Shown piece after piece: positions 55,676-62,434 of a stretch of 64,000 nt of DNA. The DNA lies in the NCBI RefSeq assembly GCF_018394335.1, contig NZ_CP074572.1, forward strand, positions 2,666,001-2,730,000, given 5' to 3'. The notes below the pieces were generated by a model that was not told the origin of the DNA, made no database searches, and saw nothing but the letters and a program-made list of their open reading frames with translations. Origin of the DNA: Shewanella dokdonensis (lineage in GTDB: Bacteria; Pseudomonadota; Gammaproteobacteria; Enterobacterales; Shewanellaceae). A program made the position numbers and the translations under genes. Numbering within the stretch: position 1 is the first letter of the stretch; every line of letters begins with the position of its first letter.

Positions 55676-55792
55676 GAAGCGCTGCCGGACAAGACAGAAT
55701 TAAGGTATGATGCGCGCCATTGAACAGCTGTGGTGATAACGCATTATTACTCGCTGTATCAGCTCATTTTCATAGCCAAAGGGCATCGCATA

Positions 55793-56979
55793 GTGGACAG
55801 GATCAAACTTAAACCAGGGCGCGAAAAATCGCTCGATCGCCATCATCCTTGGATATTCTCCAGCGGTATTCACAACATTAAGGGGCAACCAGTTGCGGGA
55901 GCCACTGTCGACGTGGTGGCGCATGATGGGCGTTGGCTGGGCCGTGGTGCCTGGTCGCCAGAATCGCAGATCCAGGTGCGTATCTGGACTTTTGATCGTG
56001 AACAAGAGATAGACCGGACGTTTTTTCTGCAACGCATCCAACGCGCGCAGTTGGGACGGGAGGCATTGATTGCCCGCCAAGGTCTGACCGGGTATCGCTT
56101 GATTGCTGCCGAGTCCGATGGACTGCCGGGGATCACCATAGATCGCTATGCTAACGTGCTTGTCTGTCAGTTGTTATCTGCTGGCGCCGATTATTGGCGA
56201 GAAACCTTAGTGTCAGTGTTAGCGGAGCTTTATCCAGACTGTGCCATTTATGAACGCTCGGACGTGGACTCCCGGAAAAAGAAGGGCTAGCACTGACGAC
56301 TGGTTTGTTGCATGGCGAGTTGCCGCCGATGCCGGTGGTGATTGAAGAAAATGGCGTCAAGATTGCGGTGGATGTGACCACCGGGCACAAGACCGGATTT
56401 TATCTGGATCAACGTGACAACCGAGCGGTTGCGGCGCGCTCCGTCGCTGGCAAATCTGTGCTTAACTGCTTCTGTTATACCGGCACCTTTGGCGTTTATG
56501 CGGCCAAAGGTGGTGCCGCCAGTATTGAAAACGTCGATGTTTCTTCATTGGCGCTGACAATGGCTAAAGCCAATATGACGCTTAATGGCATCGATGATAG
56601 CCAGGTGCAATATACGGAAGCCGATGTCTTCAAACTATTGCGGCAGTACCGCGACGAAGGGCGAACATTTGATGTTGTGGTACTGGACCCGCCCAAATTT
56701 GCCGACAACAAAGCGCAATTACCGGGCGCTTGCCGTGGCTATAAGGATATCAATATGTTAGCGATGCAATTGCTGGTGCCTGGTGGCACTTTGCTGACAT
56801 TTTCCTGCTCTGGTTTGATGCCTGCCGATCTATTCCAGAAAATCGTGGCAGATGCTGCTTTGGATGCCAAACGCGAAGCGCAGTTTACCGAGCGTTTGAG
56901 TCAAGCGTCCGATCATCCTATAGCCGCGGCTTTCCCAGAAGGCTTTTATCTGAAAGGGCTGGTAGCCACTGTGTGGTAA
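55793..56979 (+). CDS. rlmI: 23S rRNA (cytosine 1962-C5) methyltransferase RlmI, one missing base
   Basis: SAM-dependent rRNA methyltransferase of about 395 residues after repair. The N-terminal PUA domain has [21 protein letters not shown]. The catalytic domain has the SAM motif [20 protein letters not shown], the [11 protein letters not shown] motif and the catalytic Cys in TFSCSGLM. The frame breaks at the A5 run 56276-56280; a sixth A gives [21 protein letters not shown]. The GTG at 55793 is chosen because it opens just before the PUA core; an ATG-like start at 55730 adds an unconserved leader. Confidence 0.92.
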
Positions 56980-57000
56980 ACGCCAAACGTGATTATCAAA

Positions 57001-57033
57001 AATAAAGGGTGAGATTTCACCCTTTATTTTTTT
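57001..57033 (+). terminator. terminator of rlmI
   Basis: Perfect 12-base stem AATAAAGGGTGA / TCACCCTTTATT with loop GATT and a T tract. Starts 21 bases after the stop. It insulates the respiratory operon promoter region from rlmI. Confidence 0.92.
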
Positions 57034-57060
57034 GTATTGATACCATTATCAATACTGATA
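57034..57060. promoter_or_regulatory. candidate upstream activator sites for the sigma-54 regulator
   Basis: GTATTGATA and TATCAATAC form a perfect nine-base inverted repeat around CCAT (57034-57055). The second arm forms another repeat with TGATA (TATCA-ATAC-TGATA, 57047-57060). The distance to the sigma-54 promoter is about 290 bases, within the range for enhancer-like sites. Binding by the regulator at 60749 is inferred. Confidence 0.45.
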
Positions 57061-57344
57061 ATTTATTAGCTTTATTTAACGTAATTAATTAATCATTTCA
57101 TATAATAGTATTTCTTGCTAGATAATATATAACAAAATTAAAAGTGGCTCATAAAATGACTTTTTATGTGATATTTGTCATTCAGCTATTTATTTTAAAT
57201 TAGCAGGATTATATCTAGATCTAACTCACTTTTTTATGTCTTATAATCATTTTTATTTTAATAAAACTTTTCTCAATATTAAAATTTTATTCTGATTAAT
57301 TGAAAATTAAATATTAATTATCAATTAGTTGTGTTTTTTAAATA

Positions 57345-57360
57345 TGGCATGTTTGTTGCC
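57345..57360 (+). promoter_or_regulatory. sigma-54 (RpoN) promoter
   Basis: TGGCATG-TTTG-TTGCC: the -24 GG and -12 GC are exactly ten bases apart and the flanks match the consensus TGGCACG-N4-TTGCW closely. Transcription would start near 57371, about 80 bases ahead of the flavoprotein ATG. The nearby sigma-54 activator gene supports it. Confidence 0.82.
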
Positions 57361-57450
57361 TTTACATAATTGTCTCCAGACTTGGTTGTTCAAAAACAAA
57401 TTAAATTGAATAACTAATTAATTAATAAAAGATGAAATAATGAGGCGAGT

Positions 57451-58979
57451 ATGAAAATTATTAAAAACACAACAGATTTATCCAGACGTAAATTTCTTAA
57501 GTTTTCTGGCGCGGCTACTGCGACGTCCGGTTTACTCTTAGCTGGACTGAGTACTGAAACTGTTGCACAGAATGTCGGTGTACCAAAACACTGGGATGAA
57601 ACCTGTGATGTGGTGGTTATTGGCAGTGGTTTTGCTGGCCTATCAGCAGCCATTGAGGCCAGAAAGGCTGGCGTTAGCGTTATCGTGCTGGAGAAAATGC
57701 CCGTGCCAGGTGGTAACTCCACCATCAATGGTGGTGGCATGGCAGTCGTTGGCAGTGATGTGCAAAAGGCTCATGGTGTTAAAGATTCCGTAGATCTGAT
57801 GCTGGCCGATATGTACAAAGCTGGTCTGGGACTTAATTACCCACAACAGGCACGGATGGTGGCTGAGAGAAGTAATGAAGCATTTGAGTGGTGTCGTGAC
57901 TATTTGGGCGTGAAATTCAAAGATACGCTGGCACATTTTGGTGGCCATGCGGTTCCTCGTACACATACCACCACGATCCAATCCGGTTCTGGCATCGTGC
58001 AACCAATGCTACAAAAATGCGATCAACTGGGCGTGCAGTTGCAGAAAAAGTCTATGTAAAACGGTTGATTGTCGATGGTGAACGGGTTGTAGGACTGGAA
58101 GTGATCCCTAACTATCGTCAGGGGAAAGAAGACGCTAGCAATGTTAAGTTCATCAAAGCTAACAAAGGGGTGGTGATGGCCGCCGGTGGCTTTGCTGCGG
58201 ATGTGCTCTATCGTACCACTCAGGATCCACGTTTGAGTGCTGAACTAGATACAACCAACCATAAAGGGGCTACCGCCGAATGCCTCAAGGAGTTGATCCG
58301 TGTAGGTGGTAATCCTGTTCAGCTTTCTTGGATCCAATTAGGCCCATGGGCATCTCCAGATGAAAAGGGTTTTGGCTTAGCACCTATTTTTGCCGGCTAC
58401 GCAGCCTACCCTAACGGCATCATGGTGGATCCGACAACAGGTAAGCGCTTTGTGAACGAACTTGCAGATCGTAAAATTCGTGCTGATGCCATCATCAAAA
58501 CGGGGCATCCAGCAGTCGGTATTTGCGATGAAGTAGGGATGCAACCAGCCAAGCATGTGATGGGCAAATTGCTGGAACGAGAGGTAGTACATAAATTTAA
58601 TACTCTTCAGGAACTGGCCGCATTCTACAAGATCCCCGAAGCAGAACTGTTAGCTCAGGCTGAGCGCTACAACAGTTTTGTAGCACAGGGCAAAGACGGT
58701 GAATTCTCCAAACCATTCGATATGGGACAGAAATTGCTGGGACAAGCACCTTTCTACGGTGTGCGTTTCTGGCCTAAAGCTCACCACACCATGGGCGGTA
58801 TTGAAATCGATACCCTGGCTCGTGTGGTCAATATCGAAACCCGCAAACCTATTCCTGGCCTTTACGCCGCAGGTGAGATCACCGGTGGCACTCATGGTGC
58901 CTGTCGTTTAGGTACGGTTGCGATACCTGATTGCATTGTTTTTGGTCGTATCGCCGGGCAGCAAGTTGTCAAGGCGTAA
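57451..58979 (+). CDS. Tat-exported FAD-dependent reductase of the fumarate reductase/flavocytochrome c family, one missing base
   Basis: Periplasmic flavoprotein of about 509 residues after repair. Twin-arginine signal SRRKFLKFSG (residues 11-20). FAD motif VVIGSGFAGLSAAIEA near 55-70. Superfamily active-site features are kept: RFVNELADR with Arg near 341, KAHHTMGG with HH at 445-446 and GACRLGT with Arg near 486. In fumarate reductases an IQAHPT motif supplies a substrate His; here it reads IQLGPW (near 295-300). No haem domain is fused; the haem partner is encoded downstream. The frame breaks at the A5 run 58045-58049; a sixth A gives LQKKVYVKRL. It likely reduces an unsaturated acid other than fumarate. 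Confidence 0.88.
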
Positions 58980-58986
58980 GGCATTT

Positions 58987-59008
58987 TGCCCGGGATTAAC
59001 TCCGGGCA
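58987..59008 (+). repeat. intra-operon hairpin after the flavoprotein gene
   Basis: Seven-base stem TGCCCGG / CCGGGCA with an eight-base loop and no T tract. It lies between the flavoprotein and porin genes and may stabilise the upstream message or set relative expression. Confidence 0.6.
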
Positions 59009-59034
59009 TTCTTCTGGATTTGGGGAATTTACAA

Positions 59035-60240
59035 ATGAAAACAACTATCTGTAATTTACGTATGAAGACTGTTGCCTTCGCCATTAGTGCCACTATGTTA
59101 CTTGCCAGCAGCGGTGCCAGTGCTTTGGATTTTGATGTCAATGGCACTAAGCTCACCTTTGGTGGTTATGCCAAAATGATGGTGATTTATGATACCGACG
59201 GTACGGTAACTGCACCTTATAACGGTGACCTTTACAGCGTTTACTCAACGCCAATTGATGGCTCCGCTAATGCGGATAAAACCGATCTGGACATGACTGC
59301 TAGAGAAAGCCGACTGTTTGTGAAAACGGCGACAGAAACTGAATATGGTACTCTGACTTCTCACATCGAGGGCGACTTCTTTGCAGATATTGATGCCGAT
59401 GGTCCTACCTGGTCTAACAGCAACGGTTTCCGTATTCGTCACGCCTATATGAAACTACAAAACGGCAAACAGTCCATTTTAGCTGGCCAGACTTGGTCCA
59501 ACTTTATGGATTTTGCCGGCATTATGCCATCGATGGACTTTTCATCAGATGCAGGTAATCCCTTTGTTCGCCAGTCTCAAGTGCGTTACCAATACGATTT
59601 TGCGCCAGGAAACTACGCGTCCGTCAGTTTGGAAAACCCATCATTAGGTTTCTGTAACGCTGGACCCGCAGTGTTTGTTAATAGTGGTTCGTCTGAAGAT
59701 AAACTGCCAGACATGGTTGTTAAGTACTTTTACGGTAATAAGACCTTTACCGTGTCTCCTCGGGCAGTGTTAAGACGGTTTGAGATAGATGGTCAATCTG
59801 CATTTGGCTATGGTCTGGCTCTGAACACCAGTGTGAAATTCGGTGCTGGTCATAAAGCGGTGCTCGGCATGATGTATGGTGATGGTATCGGTCGTTATGC
59901 CGGACTGGGTTTTAATGCCGGGGTTGGGTTAACAACAGCGAATGAGATTGAAACCTTGAAATTCAAAAGCATCATGGGCGGGGTGATTCTGGCGTTGAGT
60001 GATGATGTCAGTTGGACCGTAGGCGCCGGTTATTCAAAACAGGATGAAGAGGGATATGACATCGGCGCGTTGACCGCTATTGCCAATAAAACAGCTTTTT
60101 CCTGGCACAGCAATCTTTACTGGGATATTACCAAACAGCTGCAATATGCCGTTGGGGTGATGTCCGGCAAAGTTGAAAATATGGCGGGAGATGAGGGCGA
60201 TATGACACGCTTTCAGACCTATATTAAGTATTCATTTTAG
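59035..60240 (+). CDS. DcaP-like outer-membrane porin
   Basis: About 401 residues. The signal peptide ends ...SSGASA, then a barrel begins LDFDVNGTKLTFGGYAKMMVIYDTDG. Landmarks such as RESRLFVKTATETEYGTLTSHIEGDFF, FRIRHAYMKLQNGKQSILAGQTWSNFMD and the terminal Phe in YIKYSF match DcaP-like (trimeric, acid-permeable) porins. DcaP channels favour negatively charged organic acids, which suits an operon for reduction of an organic acid. The ATG at 59035 follows GGGGAA. Second gene of the operon. Confidence 0.85.
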   Translation: MKTTICNLRMKTVAFAISATMLLASSGASALDFDVNGTKLTFGGYAKMMVIYDTDGTVTAPYNGDLYSVYSTPIDGSANADKTDLDMTARESRLFVKTATETEYGTLTSHIEGDFFADIDADGPTWSNSNGFRIRHAYMKLQNGKQSILAGQTWSNFMDFAGIMPSMDFSSDAGNPFVRQSQVRYQYDFAPGNYASVSLENPSLGFCNAGPAVFVNSGSSEDKLPDMVVKYFYGNKTFTVSPRAVLRRFEIDGQSAFGYGLALNTSVKFGAGHKAVLGMMYGDGIGRYAGLGFNAGVGLTTANEIETLKFKSIMGGVILALSDDVSWTVGAGYSKQDEEGYDIGALTAIANKTAFSWHSNLYWDITKQLQYAVGVMSGKVENMAGDEGDMTRFQTYIKYSF

Positions 60241-60271
60241 TATCATCGCTGCTTTAGACGGGTAAGTAACC

Positions 60272-60604
60272 ATGTTTAAATTGATCTTGAAAGCGGCATT
60301 GGTCATGACTGCAGTTCTGGGAACTCCGGCATTTGCAGGTAATACCATGAAACCGCATCATCAAACCGCCGGGTTAAAATGCAATAGTTGCCATGTGACA
60401 ACGCCATTTCAAGCGGTATCGACGGAGCAGTGTGTGAAATGCCATCAGCTACCCCAGAAGAAGACCGATTATCGTGGGGCTCCTGATAAACATGATTCGC
60501 CACACTATGGACCAACGTTGGATTGTGATAACTGCCACCACGAACACGAGGTGTCAGAAAATTATTGCAACAACTGTCATGAGTTTGATTTTAAAGTGCC
60601 TTAA
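60272..60604 (+). CDS. periplasmic small tetraheme cytochrome c
   Basis: A 110-residue protein with a signal peptide (cleaved near PAFA-GN) and four CxxCH haem sites: CNSCH (37-41), CVKCH (54-58), CDNCH (85-89) and CNNCH (99-103). Additional His residues (for example HKHD, HHEH types) can serve as distal ligands. It resembles the haem domain of flavocytochrome c fumarate reductases and small tetraheme cytochromes of Shewanella. It probably delivers electrons from the quinol oxidase CymA-type network to the flavoprotein two genes upstream. Last gene before a strong terminator. Confidence 0.92.
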   Translation: MFKLILKAALVMTAVLGTPAFAGNTMKPHHQTAGLKCNSCHVTTPFQAVSTEQCVKCHQLPQKKTDYRGAPDKHDSPHYGPTLDCDNCHHEHEVSENYCNNCHEFDFKVP

Positions 60605-60624
60605 CCCCTGAACAGGGTGTCGTC

Positions 60625-60663
60625 AATATCCCCGCCGGTTGCTCCCAGGCGGGGATATTTTTA
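60625..60663 (+). terminator. terminator of the respiratory operon
   Basis: Perfect 12-base stem AATATCCCCGCC / GGCGGGGATATT with an 11-base loop and a T tract. It separates the flavoprotein-porin-cytochrome operon from the regulator gene. Confidence 0.93.
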
Positions 60664-60748
60664 ACACATTATTAATTGAAGACAGTCACGGCGTTTTTTT
60701 TGTGGCTGACATATATTGTCAATACACCATCCGGACGTGGAAATAAGC

Positions 60749-62434
60749 ATGAATACCTCAGAACTTGATTTAAGGGAATTGTTGTCTTTTAAGCCCCGGG
60801 GTGGTGCCATTAGTTTCCTTGGCCAGCGCATGTATCTGACCGATCTGTTTTCGCATGGTTTGCAGCAGATGGAGCTATGTCGCACGCTGGGGCCGGAAAT
60901 CACCCAATCAATCATCGTTCGTGCTGGTTTTTCTAAAGGATGGTTGGTAGCCGAACGCATAAAACGGCAGATGCCCGACGCATGGGCGGAAGCCCGTAAA
61001 GGTAAACTCGGACCATTGCTCTGCTCTATGTATGGCTTCGGTGAAGTGTTGAGCAGCCAGCGCCAGGATGGTATTCAAACTACCCCCTTGGTGGAAACCT
61101 ATTTTATTAGCCTGTACGAAGCGGAACAGCATTTACGGATGCATGGTTTGAGCAAGGTTCCCGTATGTTGGGAGCAGATAGGTTTTGCCAGCGGTTATGT
61201 TTCTAATCTTGAAGGTCGGACTGTGTACTTTATTGAGGATGAGTGTCAGGCCAAAGGCGACAGTTATTGTCATTTGCGCGGAAATTTTCTGGAACAGTGG
61301 AGTGACGAAATTACCCCTTATCTGTCAGTTTACAATGGCATTTGTAACGAAACCGTGGCATCTCAATTAGCCGATGTACTGCGCTCGGATGAGGCGTTGC
61401 CGCGCAACATGCAGGACAAGATTAACTTGTCATTAAAGCTGACCGCTATTGAGGACGGTTATCCTGTTTCCAACAGCTACGCAATGCGCAGCTTACTGGA
61501 GATGGCGATGAACGTTGCCAAAGTGCCCACCTCGGTGCTTATCACTGGTGAGAGTGGTGTGGGTAAAGAGAAGCTAGTGCAATATATTCATACAAATTCA
61601 CCACGAAGTAATAAGCCACTCGTGGCGATAAACTGCGGAGCTCTCAATGAAACGCTGCTTGAAAATGAGCTGTTTGGTCATGTGCGCGGAGCATTTACTG
61701 GGGCTGATTGCAGTAAGAGCGGTCTGATTGAGGCCGCTGATGGTGGTACCTTATTTTTGGATGAAGTGGCTGAACTGTCTCCTGCCACTCAAGTGAAATT
61801 ACTGCGGGTACTGCAAGAAAAAGAGGTACGCAGGCTCGGTGATACCGAGACTATCAATGTTGATGTACGGATCATCTCTGCTACCAATAAAAGCTTGGAA
61901 GCGGCAGTAGACGCTGGCGAGTTTCGACAGGATCTGTACTATCGTCTTAAGGTGATTGAACTTAATATTCCCCCGTTACGTGAGCGAACGGAAGATATTT
62001 TACCTCTAAGCCGTTACTTCCTGATGAAATTCAATCAGGAGCTAGATAAGTCTCATACAGGATTTCATTATAAGACCGCTGACTTATTGCTGAGCCATAA
62101 TTGGCCGGGAAATGTTCGGGAACTGGTGAATGCTATCGAACATGCCGTAGTTCTCAGTGCTGGGCCGCAGATTATGCCGGAAGATCTACCCCACGAAATT
62201 CGAGATACTTTGTGCTTGCCGTCAGCAGCAGGTGATATTCGAGCGTTACATGAAGTGGAGAAAGACTACATCTTAGCGGTGTTGGAAAAACTGGATAACA
62301 ACAAGACTCAGACCGCAGAAAAATTAGGGATGAGTTTGGCAACCTTGTATCGCAAACTTAAGGAGTATGGGGCTCTACAACTCGCGATCTGTTCTTGGCT
62401 TTACTCCTTTAGCGTAACTTTATCTGGATTTTAA
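60749..62434 (+). CDS. sigma-54-dependent activator of the XylR/DmpR family (XylR_N-V4R-AAA-Fis)
   Basis: A 561-residue enhancer-binding protein. The N-terminal XylR_N and V4R sensory domain covers about residues 10-195. Zinc ligands C140, E163, C166 and C174 show the same spacing as in MopR/DmpR. The AAA domain has Walker A GESGVGKE (267-274), GAFTGA (314-319) for sigma-54 contact and Walker B GGTLFLDEV. The C-terminal Fis-type helix-turn-helix is KTQTAEKLGMSLATLYRKLKEY. By alignment from memory, the phenol-contacting His and Trp of MopR are Cys92 and Phe119 here, so the ligand should differ. It most likely activates the sigma-54 promoter at 57345. Confidence 0.9.
   Translation: MNTSELDLRELLSFKPRGGAISFLGQRMYLTDLFSHGLQQMELCRTLGPEITQSIIVRAGFSKGWLVAERIKRQMPDAWAEARKGKLGPLLCSMYGFGEVLSSQRQDGIQTTPLVETYFISLYEAEQHLRMHGLSKVPVCWEQIGFASGYVSNLEGRTVYFIEDECQAKGDSYCHLRGNFLEQWSDEITPYLSVYNGICNETVASQLADVLRSDEALPRNMQDKINLSLKLTAIEDGYPVSNSYAMRSLLEMAMNVAKVPTSVLITGESGVGKEKLVQYIHTNSPRSNKPLVAINCGALNETLLENELFGHVRGAFTGADCSKSGLIEAADGGTLFLDEVAELSPATQVKLLRVLQEKEVRRLGDTETINVDVRIISATNKSLEAAVDAGEFRQDLYYRLKVIELNIPPLRERTEDILPLSRYFLMKFNQELDKSHTGFHYKTADLLLSHNWPGNVRELVNAIEHAVVLSAGPQIMPEDLPHEIRDTLCLPSAAGDIRALHEVEKDYILAVLEKLDNNKTQTAEKLGMSLATLYRKLKEYGALQLAICSWLYSFSVTLSGF

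Follow-up and report, generated by a model that had tools for sequence, protein, structure and literature searches.

A stretch of 64,000 nucleotides of the Shewanella dokdonensis genome (positions 2666001-2730000 of the single contig NZ_CP074572.1, 4127406 bases; hereafter the window) was found to carry a four-gene unit that we regard with high confidence as a real, conserved and separately regulated respiratory cassette. On balance, the unit is best read as a substrate-inducible anaerobic respiratory cassette with an inducible periplasmic reductase for arylacrylate-type acids, and confidence in the class of the substrate is moderate to low. The genes lay on the forward strand between 57451 and 62434 in the order twin-arginine translocation (Tat) flavoprotein, DcaP-type porin, four-haem cytochrome, terminator and XylR/DmpR-type sigma-54 activator. 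The features of the unit, in window coordinates, are as follows.

56998-57031, forward strand: terminator-like hairpin of 15 pairs with a T tail after rlmI, bordering the unit on its upstream side.
57259-57275, forward strand: candidate enhancer (upstream activating sequence), a degenerate TGAGAA-N5-TTCTCA matched at 10 of 12 positions, the case for which comes from relatives.
57345-57360, forward strand: -24/-12 promoter element of the sigma-54 type, TGGCATgtttgTTGCC; when the upstream region of 300 bp was shuffled 500 times, 4 of the shuffles gave an equally good match.
57451-58059, forward strand: first frame of the flavoprotein, 202 aa, with the Tat signal and the N-terminal part of the flavin adenine dinucleotide (FAD) domain.
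58017-58979, forward strand: second frame of the flavoprotein, 320 aa, holding the rest, in which lie the catalytic and the carboxylate-binding Arg as well as the substrate His.
59035-60240, forward strand: DcaP-type outer-membrane porin, 401 aa (PF19577; PDB 6eus).
60272-60604, forward strand: periplasmic tetraheme cytochrome, 110 aa, like the haem domain of flavocytochrome c fumarate reductase (PF14537).
60625-60659, forward strand: transcription terminator (hairpin and T tract) closing the flavoprotein-porin-cytochrome operon.
60749-62434, forward strand: XylR/DmpR-type sigma-54 activator, 561 aa, with XylR_N, a weak V4R, AAA+ and a Fis-type helix-turn-helix (HTH).

Domain searches showed that all four genes named in the initial annotation were real, although it had overlooked that the flavoprotein frame is broken into two open reading frames (ORFs). 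The flavoprotein carried a Tat signal and matched FAD_binding_2, while neither a haem domain nor the covalent flavin mononucleotide (FMN)-binding domain of urocanate reductase was found in the domain scan of its two pieces, and CXXCH was absent from the orthologous ORFs listed. The porin matched PF19577 at 54.3 bits against a cut-off of 27, and 6eus was the sole PDB match of its profile at E 0.01. The cytochrome matched PF14537, contained four CXXCH motifs and resembled the haem domain of FccA in sequence comparison. The hairpin between cytochrome and regulator had a predicted energy of -29.1 kcal/mol (z -3.85) that was reached by 0 of 200 shuffles, in agreement with the strong terminator described earlier; terminator-like sites in the whole region numbered 8 against 7.6 in shuffles and were thus not in excess.

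An orthologous flavoprotein gene was detected at 12 loci in 11 genomes, i.e. the present one, S. fodinae, S. profunda, Ferrimonas sediminicola, S. carassii, S. sp. SG41-4, S. frigidimarina, S. metallivivens, G013, G051 and G457 (two loci). Flavoprotein, porin, cytochrome and regulator followed in identical order at 10 of these loci, in Shewanella and Ferrimonas, so that the four genes are conserved together in relatives of the window. Of the remaining two, the SG41-4 locus lay on a contig ending inside the porin, and a second copy of the module in G457 (L104:5547-9438) lacked both the porin and a recognisable enhancer. The earlier statement that the unit has its own porin therefore holds for the 10 complete loci, the window operon among them, and not for this copy. 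In S. profunda the regulator frame stopped at 451 aa, before the HTH and near a contig end. Proteins of the module were 88-97% and its DNA 87-91% identical to those of S. fodinae. Among 117 Shewanella genomes, a flavoprotein match of at least 68% identity was present in nine, with a XylR_N gene adjoining it in eight; the ninth was a contig of the SG41-4 type. An order-wide first look, which scored three candidates per genome, passed E 1e-110 in 20 of 394 genomes and 2 of 114 genera; only five of these 20 genomes held orthologues, the rest belonging to more distant clades.

A conserved sigma-54 promoter and a palindromic enhancer, both absent from the initial annotation, appear from sequence comparison to be new elements of the unit. 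A -24/-12 type element (GG-N10-GC, 8-10 of 11 consensus positions) was located 70-128 bp before the start codon in all nine regions, and a sigma-54 type element was also present in the three further loci, giving 12 of 12 module loci. In the seven regions tested, 0-11 of 500 shuffles were as good; these and the following shuffle controls are simple base shuffles. The pattern alone was not rare, since 8 matches were found in the window against 9.5 expected when one mismatch was allowed, and the weight therefore lies on placement and conservation. A stricter pattern requiring a pyrimidine before TGC missed five of the nine loci, whereas the looser GG/GC rule found all nine. Upstream of the promoter, the palindrome TGAGAA-N5-TTCTCA was matched at 10-12 of 12 positions in all nine regions as well as in L071 and L103, i.e. 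in 11 of the 12 loci. In eight loci its centre lay 78-82 bp from the TGG of the -24 element; in L054, L070 and L071 the distance was 91-93 bp, about one helical turn more. Across the nine regions, 0-26 of 500 shuffles were as good. The palindrome had been derived from seven of the nine regions (L055 being a near copy of L056), and of the regions held out (L070, L071, L103, L104 and L111-L113, with L070/L071 and likewise L112/L113 closely related) only L104 failed, the rest having it at the expected distance. The composite of enhancer and promoter occurred once in the own genome and not at all in the reversed control. Three other modules, L111, L112 and L113, had the same enhancer, placed 82-84 bp from the promoter (16, 3 and 1 equally good shuffles out of 500), and their regulators were 52, 76 and 77% identical to that of the window; the enhancer was missing (8-9 of 12 positions) in seven further modules tested, with regulators 42-45% identical. 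The DmpR/XylR consensus TTGATCAATTGATCAA was tried as the enhancer and rejected: its best matches reached 10-12 of 16 positions in the nine regions and had no common place.

Family assignment of the flavoprotein was made with the flavocytochrome c subfamily model TIGR01813 (cut-off 285.45 bits), which the S. fodinae orthologue matched at 468.5 bits and the two pieces of the window separately at 159.6 and 285.9 bits. The nearest solved relatives were fumarate and urocanate reductases, at moderate similarity. In a tree of 28 flavoproteins, which contained several long end branches, the present clade was a single branch (95/98), separate from FccA, IfcA and UrdA (99/97), so that the tight clustering with a characterised reductase that had been named as counter-evidence was not observed; beside it stood an ergothionase-linked clade, which included a paralogue from the own genome and the flavoprotein of L106, a locus without lyase. 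Alignment to the solved structures showed that Arg402, His504 and Arg544 of Fcc3 (Arg411, His520 and Arg560 of UrdA) are kept in the clade; the numbering of His504 and Arg544 was verified by counting along 1e39. In both alignments the position of Fcc3 His365 was occupied by Gly, and the fumarate-specific histidine is thus absent. Arg402 is catalytic, His and Arg hold the substrate carboxylate, and His365 binds the second carboxylate of fumarate, according to PMC7921117. The retention of one carboxylate site together with the exchange of His365 for Gly points to a monocarboxylate with a different group on the beta-carbon, probably a larger one. This Gly lies in the motif IQLGPWASPDEKGFG, and the stretch around the motif exceeds that of fumarate and urocanate reductase by 5-6 residues. 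The position of UrdA Tyr373 was likewise Gly in both alignments, and Glu378 and Arg381 of the FccA proton pathway were kept in neither, with the loop aligned differently in each.

Eight loci related to the unit (L077-L080 and L107-L110, e.g. L080:7437-12782) contained a Tat flavoprotein, an ergothionase-like lyase, a tetraheme cytochrome and a sigma-54 activator. The activator was identified by Pfam in L077, by similarity to that of L080 in L107-L110, and from its N-terminus only in L078 and L079. Among the seven cytochromes counted (all but that of L109), six had four CXXCH motifs and that of L078 had two. The L077 lyase was Lyase_aromatic by Pfam, that of L080 had ergothionase 6s7j as its best PDB match (E 3.4e-83; next entry 1e-43), and those of L107-L110 were 66-80% identical to the L080 lyase. 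A signal-like hydrophobic stretch was seen at the lyase N-terminus, where in L079 and L109 it follows a longer, mechanically assigned start; the lyase of L078 was split into two ORFs. Enzymes with the 4-methylideneimidazole-5-one (MIO) group carry the motif Ala-Ser-Gly, and the four lyases of L077-L080 had Glu-Ala-Asp at this site; a regular expression for the MIO region matched none of seven lyases. Ergothionase makes thiourocanate, an arylacrylate-like acid. The sister flavoproteins were 45-50% identical to that of the window over its C-terminal piece and shared the motif GPWASPDEKGFG. They were rejected as orthologues on account of their other partner set, with an ergothionase-like lyase and another type of activator. 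This sister module is a candidate for periplasmic ergothioneine respiration, judging from its gene content.

The regulator most likely starts at ATG 60749 and not at TTG 60716. XylR_N, the sigma-54 activation domain and HTH_8 were all found, which places it in the XylR/DmpR family as first proposed, while the V4R match of 30.5 bits was just below the cut-off of 31. The zinc-ligand pattern Cys-Glu-Cys-Cys of DmpR was kept in nine of nine regulators. In the 117 Shewanella genomes, 24 XylR_N genes were present in 16 genomes, eight of them orthologues of the window regulator. Twenty of the 24 adjoined genes for a flavoprotein, a tetraheme cytochrome and an outer-membrane channel, and the combination that the initial annotation had called unusual is thus the usual setting of this regulator family in the sample. 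Twelve of the other 16 loci were modules of this kind (L111-L115, L117-L119, L121-L123 and L125). A thirteenth, L065:5252-9915 (own genome 1363252-1367915), held a second XylR_N activator next to a Phenol_MetA_deg channel and a Tat flavoprotein that is likewise split, and a cytochrome was not seen there; the genes of L116 and L124 lay at contig ends, and that of L120, on a 4.5-kb contig, stood next to what is presumably an aldehyde dehydrogenase-like gene. Two more pairs of tetraheme cytochrome and split flavoprotein were observed in the own genome (L063:7632-9737 and L064:6170-8981, the latter with a Phenol_MetA_deg channel). Channels in L111-L113 were DcaP-like and 58-69% identical to the window porin; those of the other modules were 30-50% identical to the L065 channel, a Phenol_MetA_deg protein according to Pfam. 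Flavoproteins of the other modules had vinylphenol reductase VprA as their best match, below its cut-off, in all five scanned, and lacked Arg402, His504 and Arg544 in all eight aligned, a comparison to be read with caution as they are distant from the window flavoprotein. Mainly because these carboxylate residues are kept here and lost in the other modules, the window enzyme was placed with aryl-carboxylates and not with vinyl arenes. L112 and L113 share the enhancer and a closely similar regulator with the window, yet their enzyme is of a different family. Co-occurrence of phenolic acid decarboxylase was tried as a hint of vinylphenol and rejected, neither genome with the gene having a VprA-like module among those seen. 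We tentatively suggest that the XylR_N family controls exchangeable Shewanella respiratory cassettes of channel, tetraheme cytochrome and swappable flavoprotein that might be adapted to aryl-alkenes of plant origin, an enzyme that keeps the carboxylate residues serving cinnamate-type acids and a VprA-like one serving vinylphenol-type compounds.

In the proposed function, a cytoplasmic XylR/DmpR-type sensor would recognise the compound or a derivative and bind the palindromic enhancer about 80 bp above the sigma-54 promoter, turning on flavoprotein, porin and cytochrome jointly. The DcaP-type porin would pass the anionic substrate across the outer membrane. The tetraheme cytochrome would receive electrons from menaquinol, probably via a CymA-type quinol oxidase whose gene lies at another place in the genome, and hand them to the flavoprotein FAD; the own genome contains rpoN and one gene of the CymA/NapC family. 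The flavoprotein would then act on an alpha,beta-unsaturated carboxylic acid with a group other than carboxylate at the beta-carbon and reduce its C=C bond, the most likely acceptor being an arylacrylate such as cinnamate or hydroxycinnamate. The arylacrylate-like acid that the sister clade's ergothionase-like lyase would yield was counted for the aryl reading. There is good support, at the level of architecture, for the unit first suggested, one that takes up, senses and respires an unsaturated organic acid, while its "possibly aromatic" part has indirect support.

Several observations weigh against an arylacrylate cassette. The aryl substrate is reached by inference throughout. The enhancer score was reached by 14 of 500 simple shuffles for the window, 26 for L051, 20 for L103 and 16 for L111, and L104 matched the enhancer at only 8 of 12 positions, its porin also being absent. 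The flavoprotein gene is broken in the present assembly. DcaP porins are reportedly linked to dicarboxylates in Acinetobacter, and phenolic acid decarboxylase was found in only two of the 117 genomes (S. fodinae G037 and G072). The two alignments disagreed over the loop at about Fcc3 residues 373-381, precluding a residue-by-residue reading of the pocket, and the AlphaFold model (mean predicted local distance difference test score, pLDDT, 63) was too poor at the active-site segments (below 50) to be of use. Phenol contacts in DmpR are His100 and Trp128, as given in PMC7264223, and these positions were Cys92 and Phe119, invariant in nine of nine regulators. The regulator thus belongs with the aromatic sensors, but does not sense phenol as DmpR does.

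A methacrylate- or acrylate-type system of the same architecture, with a small aliphatic enoate as acceptor (e.g. acrylate from dimethylsulfoniopropionate), is unlikely, though it fares best among the alternatives. In the Mrd/Mcc system of Geobacter sulfurreducens AM-1, a Tat flavoprotein without haem and a separate tetraheme cytochrome are encoded in one operon and reduce enoates in the periplasm, and the same report (PMC4427408) lists among the Mrd homologues, at 38% identity, an S. frigidimarina Tat protein of 510 aa that has no haem, a further point against an aryl substrate. Its length and RRHFLK motif match the S. frigidimarina orthologue of the window flavoprotein, so that the two are probably the same protein. 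However, Mcc is given there as 30 kDa, against 110 aa for the present cytochrome, a XylR-type sensor would be odd for acrylate, and the GPWASPDEKGFG stretch is common to the clade linked to an aromatic-type lyase. It is rather improbable that the unit encodes an imidazole-acrylate (urocanate or thiourocanate) reductase fed through the porin, the sister clade making the same acceptor periplasmically via ergothionase. The shared motif and C-terminal identity of the sister flavoproteins, and the secreted ergothionase-like lyase adjoining them, are in keeping with such an enzyme, but the urocanate-specific Tyr373 of UrdA is Gly here, the carboxylate-side motifs HHTMGG and RLGTVAI differ from HYCMGG and RLGACAV of the sister clade, no lyase gene adjoins the window flavoprotein, and the regulator types differ. 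Reduction of an arylacrylate-type acid is still the reading we prefer.

The two flavoprotein ORFs overlap in different frames. Compared with the S. fodinae orthologue, a one-base length difference was seen in a short A run near 58049, and the neighbouring gene at 55730-56979, which we take to be the housekeeping gene rlmI, was likewise split over two frames by a one-base difference in a short A run near 56281. In the 12.9 kb of aligned DNA that this comparison covered, these were the two within-gene frame breaks caused by one-base length differences; other coding length differences lay at gene ends (51218, 55672 and 55739-55765), cancelled each other (53072/53076) or comprised three bases (53155 and 53168). 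Third codon positions accounted for 62 of the 81 mismatches to S. fodinae before the break and for 94 of the 113 after it, indicating that the flavoprotein gene was under selection until very recently. The orthologous genes of the other 10 genomes had an open frame, and in the own genome two of three other flavocytochrome c family matches over the cut-off were also split. The frame loss in rlmI and the third-position bias suggest an assembly error or a very recent mutation, and we favour an assembly error over a dead gene. The occurrence of both splits at short A runs is also a hint of systematic homopolymer errors in the assembly. Least probable is a module dead in the present strain, with a truly broken flavoprotein frame and the rest decaying, which would account for the two frames of the gene in the single assembly available, but the porin, cytochrome and regulator genes are intact, substitutions are mostly at third positions on either side of the break, and rlmI and the other flavocytochrome c matches are split as base-calling errors would give.

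If the proposed function is correct, aromatic sensing is linked to anaerobic respiration, new electron acceptors are predicted for a model electroactive genus, and enhancer, sigma-54 promoter and kept or lost carboxylate residues provide a rule separating enoate from vinyl-arene reductases. If the cassettes form a class, a sensor family known from aerobic pollutant degradation would have been reused for anaerobic respiration. The survey also yields, in the sister system, a testable candidate for periplasmic ergothioneine respiration. The flavoprotein family, the two-component layout, the porin and the regulator families are already known; the gene combination, the enhancer and the recurrence of both are new as far as the literature search showed. 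No description of the cassette was found among the titles and abstract starts of the matches listed, most subscription papers being outside this search, which is weak evidence of novelty.

The unit resembles Mrd/Mcc in that a Tat flavoprotein and a tetraheme cytochrome are encoded in one operon, here with the porin gene between them. It differs in the 38% identity of the S. frigidimarina protein, in the size of the cytochrome, and in its porin and sigma-54 activator, neither of which is described in the passages of PMC4427408 that were consulted. Reduction of methacrylate and acrylate but not of fumarate is characteristic of Mrd/Mcc. FAD domain, Arg402, His504 and Arg544 are shared with FccA and IfcA of Shewanella, as is the type of haem domain with FccA, but the haem domain is encoded by a separate gene, His365 is replaced by Gly, and Glu378 and Arg381 are not retained in either alignment. 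As in UrdA (6t85; PMC7921117), the one-carboxylate residues are kept and the dicarboxylate-specific histidine is dropped, whereas the FMN-binding domain is missing, Tyr373 is replaced by Gly and a partner cytochrome adjoins. With DmpR, MopR and XylR (6iy8; PMC7264223) the regulator shares the XylR_N sensor, the zinc ligands, AAA+, the Fis-type HTH and a promoter of the sigma-54 type; unlike theirs, its phenol-contacting His and Trp are replaced by Cys and Phe, and it adjoins a respiratory-type reductase and not an aromatic degradation operon. Flavoproteins like those of the VprA family (NF053717) occupy the enzyme slot of sister XylR_N modules but lack the three carboxylate-site residues, all of which are kept by the window enzyme.

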